Assembly (NCBI RefSeq): GCF_000420725.1
Contig: NZ_ATVM01000008.1
Span: forward strand, 1-64,000
Length of the DNA: 64,000 nt
Direction: 5' to 3'
Source: Marinococcus halotolerans DSM 16375
GTDB taxonomy: Bacteria > Bacillota > Bacilli > Bacillales > Marinococcaceae
The notes under the pieces were generated by a model that was not told the DNA's origin, ran no database searches, and was given only the letters and a program-made list of their open reading frames with translations. The translations under genes were made by a program, and so were the position numbers. This document shows positions 52,441-58,124 of this stretch, one piece after another (position 1 is the first letter of the stretch; every line of letters begins with the position of its first letter).

Positions 52441-52890
52441 TTAAAGCATTTCTAAAAATCGGTTTACAATCTCCGGCGAATGTTCCTTCTGCTTACAGAT
52501 AATGAGAATTGTGTCATCCCCGCAAATGGTGCCCATAATATTTTCCCAGTCCAGATTATCAATCAGGGCCCCTACAGCATTGGCGTTGCCCGGCAGTGTT
52601 TTCATGACAATTAAATTCTCCGAATGATCAATGCCGACAAAGCTGTCCACGAGTGCCCGTTTTAATTTCTGCATAGGATTGAAGCGTTGATCGGCAGGCA
52701 GGCTGTATTTGTATCTACCGTCGATCATCGGCACCTTTACAAGGTGAAGCTCTTTAATATCCCGCGACACCGTCGCCTGGGTCACGTTGTAGCCATCTCC
52801 CCGGAGTCTTGCTACTAAATCATCCTGCGTTTCTATGTCTGAATTTGAAATTAATTCCCTTATTTTTATGTGCCTCTGTCCCTTATTCAT
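52441..52890 (-). CDS. argR: Arginine repressor ArgR/AhrC
   Basis: This 149-aa protein has an N-terminal winged helix ([20 protein letters not shown], then [20 protein letters not shown]) and the C-terminal hexamerisation/arginine-binding domain with [15 protein letters not shown] and [13 protein letters not shown]. It senses arginine and controls its synthesis and breakdown. Position between tlyA and recN is the conserved Bacillus order. Confidence 0.97.
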
Positions 52891-53034: not shown

Positions 53035-53859
53035 CGAAGGTTCCAATTTTTTCTTGAATGACTCGTGTGCTTCCCGGACGACAGCCTCTATTCGCTCTTC
53101 CCCGGGCCGAGACGATTTATCGCTTAATACCGAGCCATAGAGCAGGTATTCAATATTGCCGTCTCCCCCGGTAATCGGGGAAAAATCGAGCGCTTCCGGT
53201 GCTAAACCAAAGCCTTCGGCGGACTGGATTGTTTTTGTCAGTACTTCCCTGTGCACCGATGGGTCCCTGACGATACCTTTTCTGCCCACCTTTTCCCGTC
53301 CCGCTTCAAACTGTGGCTTGATAAGTACGCAAAAGCCGGCGCCTTCGTCCAGCACCTGCGGCATCACAGGGAAAAGCTTGTCCAGGGAAATAAAGGATAC
53401 ATCAGCGATCAAAAGCCCAGGTACTCCCCGAGTCAGACGACTTTTATCGAGGTACCTGAAGTTCACTCTTTCCATCACTTCTACTCTGGGATCCTGGCGC
53501 AGCTTCCAGGCGAGCTGATTGTAGCCAACATCCAAAGCATATACCATAGAAGCTCCGTTCTGCAGCGCACAATCAGTGAAGCCTCCGGTCGAAGCCCCAA
53601 CATCAAGCACCACGGCGTCCTGCAGCTTCAGCTGAAACGATTGAATGGCTTTTTCCAGTTTTAATCCGCCCCGGCTGACGTAGGGCATCTGTTTGCCTTT
53701 CAGACGCAAAGCTGCCTCATCACTGATTTTTGTCCCGGGTTTGTCCACCACTTCATCATCTGCCAGTACGAGGCCTGCCATAATTGCCCGTTTAGCTTTT
53801 TCCCGGGAATCAAACAGGCCCTTCTGCACTACCAGTGTATCAATTCGTTCTTTATTCAT
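53032..53859 (-). CDS. tlyA: TlyA-family rRNA 2'-O-methyltransferase
   Basis: This 275-aa protein has an N-terminal S4 RNA-binding domain ([29 protein letters not shown]) and a Rossmann FtsJ-like methyltransferase ([45 protein letters not shown]). It modifies ribosomal RNA and is the YqxC protein of Bacillus. The start overlaps the dxs stop by 4 bp (ATGA), so the genes are coupled. Confidence 0.95.
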
Positions 53860-55754
53860 CCGCGGATGTTTGTTCTTTCTTTACTGGTCATCGCCGTCAC
53901 TTTTTCCACTACTTTCTCTGGAGTGAGACCCAGTTCTTCATACAGCTCCGGTACGCTTCCGTGCTCGACATAGTAGTCAGCAATGCCCATCCGGCGGACT
54001 GGAAGCGAGTCATGCTCATGGTCGGCCATATACTCAAGCACTGCGCTTCCAAAGCTTCCCTTTAGTGCTGCTTCTTCCACTGTCAGTACCGGTTTGCCTT
54101 CTTCAGCTAATTCTTCGAGCATTGCTTCGTCAAGAGGCTTGGCTGAACGGGCGTTAACGATACGGACACTGGTTCCCTGTCCGCTTAACTCGGCAGCTGC
54201 CTCCTCTACGATCGGAAGCATTGTTCCAAACGAGAGGATCGTACAGTCTGTGCCTTCCCGGACGATTTCCCATTTGCCGTAAGGAATCATTTGAAACTCT
54301 TCGTCCATCTCTACTCCCAATCCGTTACCACGCGGATAGCGGACGGCTGTCGGGCCGTCGTCGTTATGGAAGGCTGAATACAGCATGTGCTGCAGTTCAT
54401 TTTCATCCTTTGGCATCAGTATTTTCATATTTGGCAGGTGCCGCAGGTATGCAATATCAAACACACCCTGGTGCGTCTCCCCGTCAGCACCGACAAGGCC
54501 TGCACGGTCGATCCCAAAGAGCACATTCAGATTCTGACGGCAGACATCATGCACAAGCTGATCGTAGCCCCGCTGCAAAAACGTGGAGTACACCCCAAAT
54601 ACCGGCTTCATTCCCTGCGTCGCAAGCGCGCCGGACATTGTTGTAGCGTGCTGTTCGGCGATACCTACGTCAAACATGCGATCCGGGAATTTATCTGCAA
54701 ACGCGTCGAGCTTCGTACCGCCGGCCATAGCAGCAGTCACAGCCACAAGGCGGGAATCCATCTCTGCTATTTTTTGCAGGGTATTGCTGAATACGGCACT
54801 GTAGGCAGGCGCAGCTGCCGGTTTTTTGATCACTTCACCGGATTCAATCTTATATGGCCCCAGTCCGTGCCAGGTTCCTTTTGCATCGTTTTCCGCCGGC
54901 GTGTAGCCTTTGCCTTTTTTGGACAGTACATGCACAATCACCGGTCCATTAGTATCTCTGGCATATTTAATATTAGCATGGAGGTCATCGAGATCATGAC
55001 CATCTACTGGACCAAGATACGTAAACCCAAGCTCCTCAAAAAACATACCGGACAGAACCATCTGCTTCATGCTGTCTTTCATCCGGTCGGCATAGGAAGC
55101 AAGCTTCGAGCCAAAGGCAGGGATTCTGCGCAGCATATGATCTACGTCTTCTTTCGTCCTGCGGTAAGTACCCGCTGTGCGAATGCGGCCGAGCATACTG
55201 TGAAGGGCCCCTACATTCGGAGAAATCGACATCTCATTGTCATTTAAAATAATGGTAACGTCCGTCTGCTCATGACCGATATGGTTAAGTGCTTCGAGAG
55301 CCATGCCGCCGGTAAGAGCACCGTCGCCAATGATAGCCGCCACTTTGGCATCCTCGCCCTTCAGCTGATTTGCAAGCGCCATTCCTTCTGCTGCAGACAG
55401 CGACGTTGAGCTGTGGCCGGTTTCCCATACGTCGTGTTCACTTTCTGAGCGTTTAGGGAAGCCGCAAAGCCCCTGGTACTGGCGCAGCGAATCAAAGCGA
55501 TCCGCACGCCCGGTTAAGATTTTATGCACGTATGACTGGTGCCCGACGTCCCAGATGAGTTTATCTTTGGGCGTGTTGTACAGCTGATGCAGGGTGAGCG
55601 TTAATTCCACTACTCCGAGATTGGGACCGAGATGGCCTCCGGTAACGGATAATTTTTCAATCAGAAAAGCCCGTATATCTTCACCTAGTGCTTTTAGCTC
55701 TTTATCGTTGTACTGCTTCATGAATCCAGGGTCTTGGATAGTTTCCAGGTTCAT
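53856..55754 (-). CDS. dxs: 1-deoxy-D-xylulose-5-phosphate synthase
   Basis: This 632-aa thiamin enzyme has the N-terminal [20 protein letters not shown], the cofactor motif [29 protein letters not shown] and the transketolase-C region [18 protein letters not shown]. It is the first step of the non-mevalonate isoprenoid pathway. With ispA nearby and the crt operon 18 kb away, it feeds quinone, bactoprenol and carotenoid synthesis. OapA is 10 bp upstream and OLE RNA beyond it, which places the RNA inside an isoprenoid gene set. Confidence 0.97.
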
Positions 55755-55764
55755 TTAAATCCCC

Positions 55765-56376
55765 CTACCTGCTATGTTTTTCTGTTGATGATTTCCATCT
55801 TCTTTTCTTTGGAATCAGCTTAATTTTTAACTTATTTTCAATAAAATACAAGATTCTTCCTACCTGAAAAACAATATTGTTCGCATAAGTAATCGCAAAT
55901 GTTTTCCCAAGTGCTTTTCCGCTGACTGTGAGCGCTGCCACAACAGCTGTGAATATAGTGCTCAGAATCAGCTGGCCGTTAGAGCTGTTATTTGTACCAA
56001 TCGTCATACCAAGCTGTACGACAACGGCCGAGCTGGCCGTCCCGCTTACAACCCCGCTGATGTCACCGATTACATCGGCACAGAAGTTTGCCACCCGGTC
56101 GGCGTTGCGTTGAATAAATACACTGTGGGACGCACCGGGAACTTTTTTAGCAGCCATTGCATTGAATGGTCTCGGCTTTGCCGCTGTAGCAGCTACGCCG
56201 ATCACGTCAAAGATTACACCGGTAAATACGATGATCAGCACGACGACCATGCCAATCGCCCAGCCAACTCCAGAAAGCACTGCTGTCGAGACTACTGAAA
56301 AGATTGCTGCAAGTATCAGGGTGACAAACCCAATTAACGTACTCCACCGGAGCGATTTTCTCCATAAACTATTCAT
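55765..56376 (-). CDS. oapA: OLE-associated membrane protein OapA (DUF21-like)
   Basis: This 203-aa protein has four hydrophobic segments: two near the N-terminus (about residues 15-62, IGFVTLILAAIFSVVS and VLIIVFTGVIFDVIGVAA) and two in 88-160, including SSAVVVQLGMTIG and FTAVVAALTVSGKALGKTFA. A basic C-terminus follows (KLKIKLIPKKRRWKSS). KALGKTFAITYAN resembles the CNNM/DUF21 core. OapA binds OLE RNA at the membrane, and its gene normally lies just downstream of the RNA, exactly as here. It is 10 bp before dxs. Confidence 0.9.
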   Translation of the reverse strand: MNSLWRKSLRWSTLIGFVTLILAAIFSVVSTAVLSGVGWAIGMVVVLIIVFTGVIFDVIGVAATAAKPRPFNAMAAKKVPGASHSVFIQRNADRVANFCADVIGDISGVVSGTASSAVVVQLGMTIGTNNSSNGQLILSTIFTAVVAALTVSGKALGKTFAITYANNIVFQVGRILYFIENKLKIKLIPKKRRWKSSTEKHSR

Positions 56377-56521
56377 GCTCGCTTATCACCAAATTCTTTG
56401 TTTTTATCATAACGTACATCTTATTCTTTTAATATCATTTTATGCTCTGGCCTGATTGTTTATACCCTAAATAACATACATTCAAGCTTTTTTCCTTTCT
56501 TTGCCGCTAAACACTCACGTA

Positions 56522-56547
56522 AAAGAAAAAAGCGCCTGCCAGCGCTT
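56522..56547 (-). terminator. Hairpin terminator after OLE RNA
   Basis: On minus AAGCGC pairs with GCGCTT around a 6-nt loop, followed by TTTTCTTTT, 18 nt beyond the RNA's closing stem. It would end most transcripts before oapA. Confidence 0.75.
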
Positions 56548-56565
56548 CTTCAACTACTTATGTAT

Positions 56566-57184
56566 AAAGTTGAATGGTCGCCCGGAGCGTAAACCTTGTG
56601 GCTTAGGTCCAGTAGGATTTCCCACCAGGCAGCCAATTCGTCGCCGAATCGGTGGTTTCCCTTTAATGCCTGATGAACGCCGTCACCGGCAGTTCGACTG
56701 AATTACCACTTAGACCACACTGCAATCCACTCCGGACGTGCGTCAAACAGCCTAGGAGTTTTCCCCGGCAGTTCCGTGCCACTTTCTTATCCTCTTTTGC
56801 AGAACAGGTTTCAGTTGTTGGGTCCCATACCAGTTGGCCGACCGGTATGATACCAATTGAACAACTTCCCCACTGTTCCACTCAAGGCAGGCTACGCTGT
56901 TGAAAGGCCTTCCCTTGGCCTTTGCAACAGGTCTTACCGCAGCATGCATCCGGGACGGTATCCGTCTTCCAGGATGACCCGGATGCATCACCGCAGCCTC
57001 CACGGCGAAAGGGTTCGCGCCCACATGCCATTGTGGATCGCCCTTACGCCTTAACTCCCAGCACCGACCCAGGGCTGGGCGCCGCAAGCCGACGCCAGGA
57101 ACTTCATCGATGTGCCCTTCAGCGGATTTTTAGGCCCGCCTTCGAAAATGGAGAACCGACTAGGATACTGCACCATTCAACTTT
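56566..57184 (-). ncRNA. ole: OLE RNA (ornate, large, extremophilic RNA)
   Basis: This is a 619-nt GC-richer segment with no convincing gene between ispA and oapA. Its ends form a perfect 13-bp closing stem (AAAGTTGAATGGT at 56566-56578 against ACCATTCAACTTT at 57172-57184). Inside are further perfect stems, such as TGCATCCGGG (56945-56954) with CCCGGATGCA (56978-56987), and CTGTTG-AAAGGCC with GGCCTTTGCAACAG around 56898-56928 (one bulge). Length, location between ispA and a DUF21 protein, and dense structure match OLE RNA. Several long frames on both strands lack ribosome sites and are by-products of the conserved RNA. Confidence 0.93.
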
Positions 57185-57236
57185 TCAAAATTATTTTAGC
57201 ATGGTTTGCCTGTTCTGAAAACTAATTCGTTCTGTT

Positions 57237-58124
57237 TTAGTGGTTACGCTGTCCAATATATTGGAGAAACGCTGTTAAAAGGGATGTTTCTACCGTCATG
57301 CGATCCAACACCATTTCCGCCTGCGCAATATGATGGGAAAGTTTCTCTTTTGCCCCTTCGAGCGTCAGCAGTTTTGGGTATGTGCTTTTTTCTTTCGTTT
57401 CATCGCTTCCGGAGGACTTCCCCATTTCCTCGAGAGATCCTTCGACATCCAGAATGTCATCCTTGATTTGAAAAACGAGACCGAGTTCCCGGCCAAACGC
57501 GCGCCAATTTTTCACCTCTTCGTCTGCGGCCTCTGCTATTAATGAACCGGAGACCACGGCAAAGGTCAAAAGATCACCTGTTTTATGATGATGAATGTAT
57601 TCGAGCTCCTCCAGGGTAAGGGACTGCTTCTCCCCTTCAAGGTCAGCCATCTGACCGCCGACCATGCCTTCGCTTCCGGAAGCCACAGCCAGCTCCTGCA
57701 CCAGCTGCAGTCTGGCGCCGGCAGATGCCGGCCGGCCCGCTTCCGCTATCCAGGAAAAGGCTGTCGTCTGCAGGGCGTCCCCCGCTAAGATGGCAGCGGC
57801 CTCTCCGAATTTTTTATGGTTCGTCGGCTGGCCCCGGCGCCAGTCGTCATCGTCCATCGACGGCAGATCATCGTGCACGAGCGAATACGTATGAATCAGC
57901 TCCACTGCTGAAGCGGCCGGAAGATCTTCTTCTTCCACTGGGCGGTAGCATTGAAGCACAGCCAGTGAAAGCAGCGGCCGCACGCGTTTTCCTCCTGCCT
58001 CGAGAGAATACAGCATCGCATCTTTCAGCGTCTCCGGCGTTTTTAACGCACGTACCCGGTCAGTCAAAGCGCGGTCGACAGAAGGGCGGTATGTATCGAA
58101 AAAACGTTGGAGGTCCTCACTCAT
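57237..58124 (-). CDS. ispA: Farnesyl (geranyl) diphosphate synthase
   Basis: This 295-aa prenyl transferase has GGKRVRPLL, the first Asp-rich motif [16 protein letters not shown] (about residues 84-98), KTGDLL and the second motif [12 protein letters not shown]. Length and motifs fit the YqiD/IspA type that makes farnesyl diphosphate. Its start overlaps the xseB stop (ATGA). It supplies C15 units to CrtM, quinone and undecaprenyl pathways. Confidence 0.96.

Follow-up and report, generated by a model that had tools for sequence, protein, structure and literature searches.

The OLE locus between ispA and dxs in the window analysed here (a stretch of 64,000 nucleotides from Marinococcus halotolerans DSM 16375) raises the question of how the 3' end of this large RNA is formed and how its transcription is separated from that of its partner gene oapA. 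For OLE 3'-end formation, a 2024 paper offers no more than a speculation on RNase PH (PMC11332333), and the ~630 nt OLE RNA of Halalkalibacterium halodurans was described as 'presumably posttranscriptionally processed' (PMC9723947). We favour, with a probability of roughly 0.65, a model in which OLE has its own promoter and yields a short transcript through early termination, followed by trimming beside the closing stem. The whole comparison covered about 150 relatives. It included 61 genomes spanning genus to order, 42 of which carry OLE (five Marinococcus and 37 others), and a class-level hold-out of 66 genomes, which was fetched after the motif UACAUA had been found at order level. The relatives in all counts given below are related to one another and hence are not independent samples.

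The window was searched with cmscan, and the Rfam OLE family (RF01071) was matched at 56558-57192 (-) with 508.2 bits (E 6e-147). The alignment covers model positions 1-616 of 616, that is the full length, at about ten times the gathering score of 50 bits, and besides OLE and one tRNA no Rfam families were detected across the 64 kb. The structured body from P1 to P1', delimited by the RF01071 match and by the P1 arms read from the sequence, occupies 56566-57184 (-), where an earlier note on this DNA had described a 619-nt segment with a perfect 13-bp closing stem. This stem is present, with AAAGUUGAAUGGU (57184-57172) pairing with ACCAUUCAACUUU (56578-56566). The note had seen no convincing gene in the segment; ORFs of 60-111 aa do overlap it on both strands, but the segment is accounted for by the covariance match. 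The RNA is the full-length form and not variant 1 or 2 as defined in PMC11332333, as the alignment has no large deletions and P7-P9 are intact. In the RF01071 alignment the P9 loop harbors a palindromic GGCC (...GGUCGGCCAACUGG...), an element that serves dimer formation (PMC12286853). A search of the genome to which the window belongs found this single OLE copy. That OLE is rare, as had been stated, does not agree with the 2,822 Bacillota assemblies that carry it (PMC11332333).

OLE and OapA were both found in 42/61 related genomes and were both absent from the other 19. One apparent case of OapA without OLE, at locus L082, was ruled out, as OLE lies elsewhere in that genome; there, oapA (L082) and ole (L276) are ~0.9 Mb apart. 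The full-length covariance match, OapA directly downstream and the co-occurrence of both in relatives bear out the earlier reading as an intact OLE locus. It adds one more member to a known kind, an ordinary full-length OLE beside its partner.

The neighbours of the locus are FPP synthase, dxs, argR, recN and spo0A. The flanking genes named in the earlier note were both identified, ispA (farnesyl diphosphate synthase) upstream at 57237-58124 (-) (NF045485, 392 bits) and dxs downstream at 53856-55754 (-) (TIGR00204, 890 bits). argR/ahrC lies at 52441-52890 (-) (NF003281, 268.8 bits), and for H. halodurans binding of its product to OLE RNA has been reported (PMC10898510). The oapA gene (55765-56376 (-)) begins 181 nt downstream of the RF01071 match and encodes a 203-aa membrane protein, with 48-99% identity to OapA of the 41 other OLE genomes; the closest proteins (98-99%) are those of M. 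luteus, M. halophilus and an uncultured Marinococcus. This protein had been called DUF21-like. The membrane ORF directly downstream and a fold resemblance stood, as the top four PDB hits for its AlphaFold model (mean pLDDT 78) are all the archaeal CNNM protein MtCorB (prob 1.00, E 0.006-0.07), but the Pfam CNNM family (PF01595) scored only 10.1 and 11.2 bits, below its cut-off of 28.4. In contrast to the CNNM/CorB magnesium transporters of the MpfA family, which the model resembles, OapA with its 203 aa is too short to include CBS and CorC domains. One separate CNNM-CBS-CorC protein of the MpfA kind is encoded in the Marinococcus genome, together with a 102-aa OapB homologue (matching solved 7k9b, 'OLE-associated protein B', E 7e-28) and an OapC/YbxF homologue (3v7e, E 4e-22). 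OapB, OapC and the CNNM-CBS-CorC protein are all expected in OLE hosts (PMC11332333).

Upstream of OLE, a consensus scan detected a candidate ole promoter at 57193-57221 (-), TTTTCA-N17-TAAAAT with a TG one base before the -10 (TGCTAAAAT), which predicts a transcription start near 57186. The scan returned three sites vs 2.1 in shuffled sequences, so the call is weak alone, and both the ole promoter and the oapA promoter described below rest on short consensus matches. In most relatives, inspection by eye showed a TGNTATAAT-like -10 about equally far upstream of OLE.

Downstream of OLE, the earlier note had pointed to a hairpin with a T tract before oapA. A hairpin was detected at 56551-56526 with the tail CTTTTACG, and it ranked at the top of the terminator-like sites in the 2 kb scanned. 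The predicted OLE intrinsic terminator (terminator scan, 56516-56551 (-)) has an 11-pair stem, a 4-nt loop and a U-rich tail. It is present in 5/5 Marinococcus, where the loop varies and one stem pair changes from G-U to G-C, and this conservation strengthens the idea that most of the RNA ends there. The ole-oapA spacer measures 204-212 nt in Marinococcus vs 50-138 nt in the 37 other order-level OLE genomes, and no convincing terminator was found in the spacer of these 37 except in G051 and G013. At seven loci (L270-L276, in G197, G208, G229, G240, G095, G073 and G081) ole is followed by dxs with no oapA between them. Each of these seven class-level genomes has a terminator-like hairpin shortly after OLE; in many class-level genomes the terminator scan, which was a simple one, found no clear terminator. 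The termination signals are well supported by sequence, and the hairpins would act in termination. As in known intrinsic terminators and attenuators, a hairpin with a U tract lies between a 5' product and a downstream gene.

The scan of the spacer had suggested that the relatives lack a terminator. This was overturned when the scan was extended into oapA, as 35/37 non-Marinococcus order-level OLE genomes carry a predicted intrinsic terminator inside the oapA ORF, ~45 nt past the start codon, with the sequence GCCGTTATCAC-NNTN-GTGTTAGCGGC followed by a T run. Its energy is -12 to -16 kcal/mol vs a mean of about -3 after synonymous-codon shuffling. The element covers oapA codons about 15-26 in loci L109-L119 and L002-L030 (e.g. 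L112, L115), and the codons of stem and U tract (GCC GTT ATC ... GTG TTA GCG GCT ATT TTT TCA) are nearly invariant. Codon homozygosity for these codons was 0.78-1.0 vs 0.18-0.63 expected, whereas the two loop codons (Thr and mostly Leu) showed 0.27 and 0.21 vs expected 0.28 and 0.23, and thus vary synonymously as freely as the rest of oapA. This freezing of codons is read directly from the alignments. All 26 named non-Marinococcus Bacillales loci tested have the in-ORF terminator; L082, which stems from a MAG with unlinked oapA, lacks it. None was found in the clostridial loci tested, and the element is limited to part of the Bacillales.

In Marinococcus the corresponding site (56296-56331 (-), GGGTTTGTCACCCTGATACTTGCAGCAATCTTTTCA) is degenerate and scored 0. 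Marinococcus (5/5) and G051 lack the in-ORF element and both carry a spacer terminator; G054 has only a weak terminator candidate. Unlike in known terminators and attenuators, the hairpin of the relatives overlaps codons of the downstream protein and is held by frozen synonymous sites, and no leader peptide or ligand is evident for it. It could act within the translated oapA because the RNA polymerase of B. subtilis outruns the ribosomes (PMC13323073). Upstream of the hairpin, synonymous conservation was also observed at oapA alignment columns 10 (Ile ATA, 24/27) and 13 (Ser AGY, 33/33), possibly a partner strand or a translation signal.

We also considered another role for the in-oapA hairpin: instead of ending transcription, it might serve as an operator in the DNA or, as RNA, be bound by a protein, e.g. 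for autoregulation by OapA. The inverted repeat of the element is nearly perfect and its centre is free, as would be expected of an operator, and its RNA stem contains one U-U mismatch and one G-U pair. Against this stand the trailing codons ATT TTT TCA, which are also frozen (27/27, 37/37 and 27/31) and superfluous for an operator. Moreover, loci that lack the element have another hairpin with a U tract, and oapA of another family contains a distinct hairpin with a U tract behind it. We therefore regard an operator or protein-binding hairpin as unlikely. In that family, f44 (L176, L180, L183, L190, L201, L222), the hairpin and U tract lie at oapA nt 68-95 and include an apparent compensatory change, U-A in L180 vs C-G in L183. 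The f44 hairpin suggests that independent in-ORF terminators exist.

A terminator in front of oapA raises the question of how oapA itself is expressed in Marinococcus. Between the OLE terminator and oapA a sigma-B-like promoter, GCTTGA-N14-GGGTAT, was detected at 56462-56487 (-). The pattern was matched in 4/5 Marinococcus and the fifth has GCGTAA-N14-GGGTAT. Compared with the B. subtilis sigma-B consensus GTTTAA-N14-GGGTAT (PMC9847131), the -10 is exact, the spacing is 14 and four of six -35 positions agree. By chance, the spacer would contain a site of this kind with a probability of ~0.5-1%. SigB is encoded in the Marinococcus genome (410.6 bits vs a cut-off of 315), its gene adjoining those for RsbW and an RsbV-like protein, and a SigB-type promoter was reported at ectA in M. 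halophilus (PMC2562377). Further sigma-B-like promoters were observed at L164 (G000:C13:46940-46965), L157 and L162, preceding the genes for a universal stress protein and for two short-chain dehydrogenases.

The earlier note had proposed that oapA and dxs may depend on read-through. Indeed, both genes might lack a promoter of their own and be expressed only by read-through of the OLE terminator, the sigma-B-like site being fortuitous: two positions of its -35 element deviate from GTTTAA, 0.8% of Markov sequences generated for this spacer contain such a site, and in H. halodurans ole lies within a large operon (PMC9723947). However, GGGTAT and the 14-nt spacing are constant in 5/5 Marinococcus species while the bases between them vary, a SigB operon is present in the genome, and the same pattern occurs upstream of the universal stress protein and both short-chain dehydrogenases. 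Expression by read-through only thus appears doubtful, and the conserved promoter weakens the proposed dependence. Since a sigma-B-like promoter follows the terminator, oapA is probably not reliant on read-through alone, and sigma-B would drive its transcription.

The second signal at the OLE 3' end is a hexamer. UACAUA, an EndoA-type recognition sequence (U/ACAUA), was read at 56559-56564 (-), one nt 3' of P1. It is found just 3' of the closing stem in 40/42 order-level OLE genomes and is the most frequent spacer hexamer, occurring in 36 of the 38 distinct order-level genomes where 2.9 were expected from Markov sequences; the next-best hexamer (20/38) is itself part of OLE. Among the class-level hold-outs, 47/66 have UACAUA no more than 100 nt from the anchor, vs 1.7 expected. 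Its positions peak sharply 0-75 nt past the anchor and are near zero elsewhere from -700 to +400, and 88/102 UACAU sites within the 100-nt interval have an A next. At the clostridial OLE loci UACAUA is absent. The motif itself is solid.

Two other explanations of the hexamer were tried and rejected. As a sigma-A -10 of oapA it fails, the following bases lacking consensus and the hexamer persisting where oapA is elsewhere. A role confined to the oapA leader fails as well: of the seven loci with ole next to dxs, four retain the hexamer between stem and terminator without oapA there, and therefore it belongs to OLE and not to oapA; in G051 and G054 it is located after the spacer hairpin. UACAUA is not avoided inside OLE (4 seen vs 4.9 expected). 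An alternative fold of the OLE 3' end is possible: at 56541-56580 (-), AGUUGAA recurs downstream of P1 and could base-pair with the 3' arm of P1, which would leave UACAUA within a loop of 12 nt.

In B. subtilis, EndoA (MazF) cleaves in vivo only U/ACAUA and not every UACAU (PMC11780869, 2025). The Marinococcus genome encodes a close EndoA homologue (4me7, E 2e-57), with a small ORF just upstream of its gene where the antitoxin gene is expected. Homologues were found in 65/66 near-complete genomes checked, including those without UACAUA, and the presence of EndoA was ruled out as a predictor of the hexamer as the enzyme is almost universal. The distance from the predicted ole start to the U/A cut is 623 nt, which comes near the ~630 nt published for the H. 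halodurans RNA (PMC9723947). The OLE site shares the identical hexamer with the EndoA/MazF (NdoA) sites of B. subtilis; in contrast to those, which are spread over the transcriptome, the single site of OLE is fixed beside the stem of a stable RNA in many genera. Trimming would take place at UACAUA, with EndoA/MazF as the hypothetical nuclease.

Whether the hexamer serves EndoA was weighed against a role unrelated to it, as a conserved part of the OLE 3' tail that is the site of another nuclease or of an RNA-binding protein. Such a role is a serious contender, at somewhat short of even odds: in wild-type B. subtilis no cleavage by EndoA was observed (PMC11780869), and some genomes have EndoA but not UACAUA. 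On the other side, the hexamer is identical to the revised EndoA site including the sixth base, and EndoA homologues are nearly universal in OLE hosts. We put at clearly less than even odds the reading that in Bacillales OLE the in-oapA terminator stops transcription and EndoA/MazF then cuts at U/ACAUA beside the closing stem. Another nuclease may do the routine trimming because EndoA cleavage is unseen in the wild type while OLE is abundant under standard growth.

Under our preferred model, transcription of the Marinococcus OLE RNA would begin at a dedicated promoter a short way upstream of the closing stem and halt at the intrinsic terminator within about 50 nt past this stem, and the short 3' tail would be trimmed at the conserved UACAUA beside the stem, giving a mature RNA of ~620-630 nt. 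Most oapA transcription would start at a separate stress promoter, probably dependent on sigma-B, with read-through from ole adding some more, and the RNA would join OapA, OapB and OapC in the known stress particle at the membrane. Most of the other OLE-bearing Bacillales examined have the terminator in the first oapA codons, which would allow one promoter to yield a large excess of OLE over oapA mRNA, whereas in Marinococcus the terminator appears to have shifted in front of oapA and to have separated the two genes.

Compared with the OLE system of H. halodurans (RF01071 with OapA, OapB and OapC), the locus shares the full-length match including P7/P8 and the P9 GGCC loop, a candidate upstream promoter of its own, oapA and dxs downstream, argR and spo0A nearby, and homologues of OapB and OapC in the genome. 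It differs in having a terminator and a sigma-B-like promoter between ole and oapA and in having lost the in-ORF terminator of the relatives. Neither the in-oapA terminator nor UACAUA is mentioned in the OLE literature searched, and older OLE papers could still mention them. The mode of 3'-end formation looks new, and the in-oapA stop signal and UACAUA are two conserved, apparently undescribed signals that may set the OLE end.

With these two signals, the origin of the OLE 3' end can be tested directly. A terminator encoded in synonymous codons of oapA could also set the ratio of OLE RNA to OapA. Marinococcus, in which ole and oapA appear uncoupled and the 3'-end signals rearranged, offers a natural experiment. 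If EndoA does cut at UACAUA, this would link a large stress RNA to a toxin-antitoxin endonuclease, and the maturation of a major stress RNA, or its switch under stress, would lie with a toxin-antitoxin enzyme.
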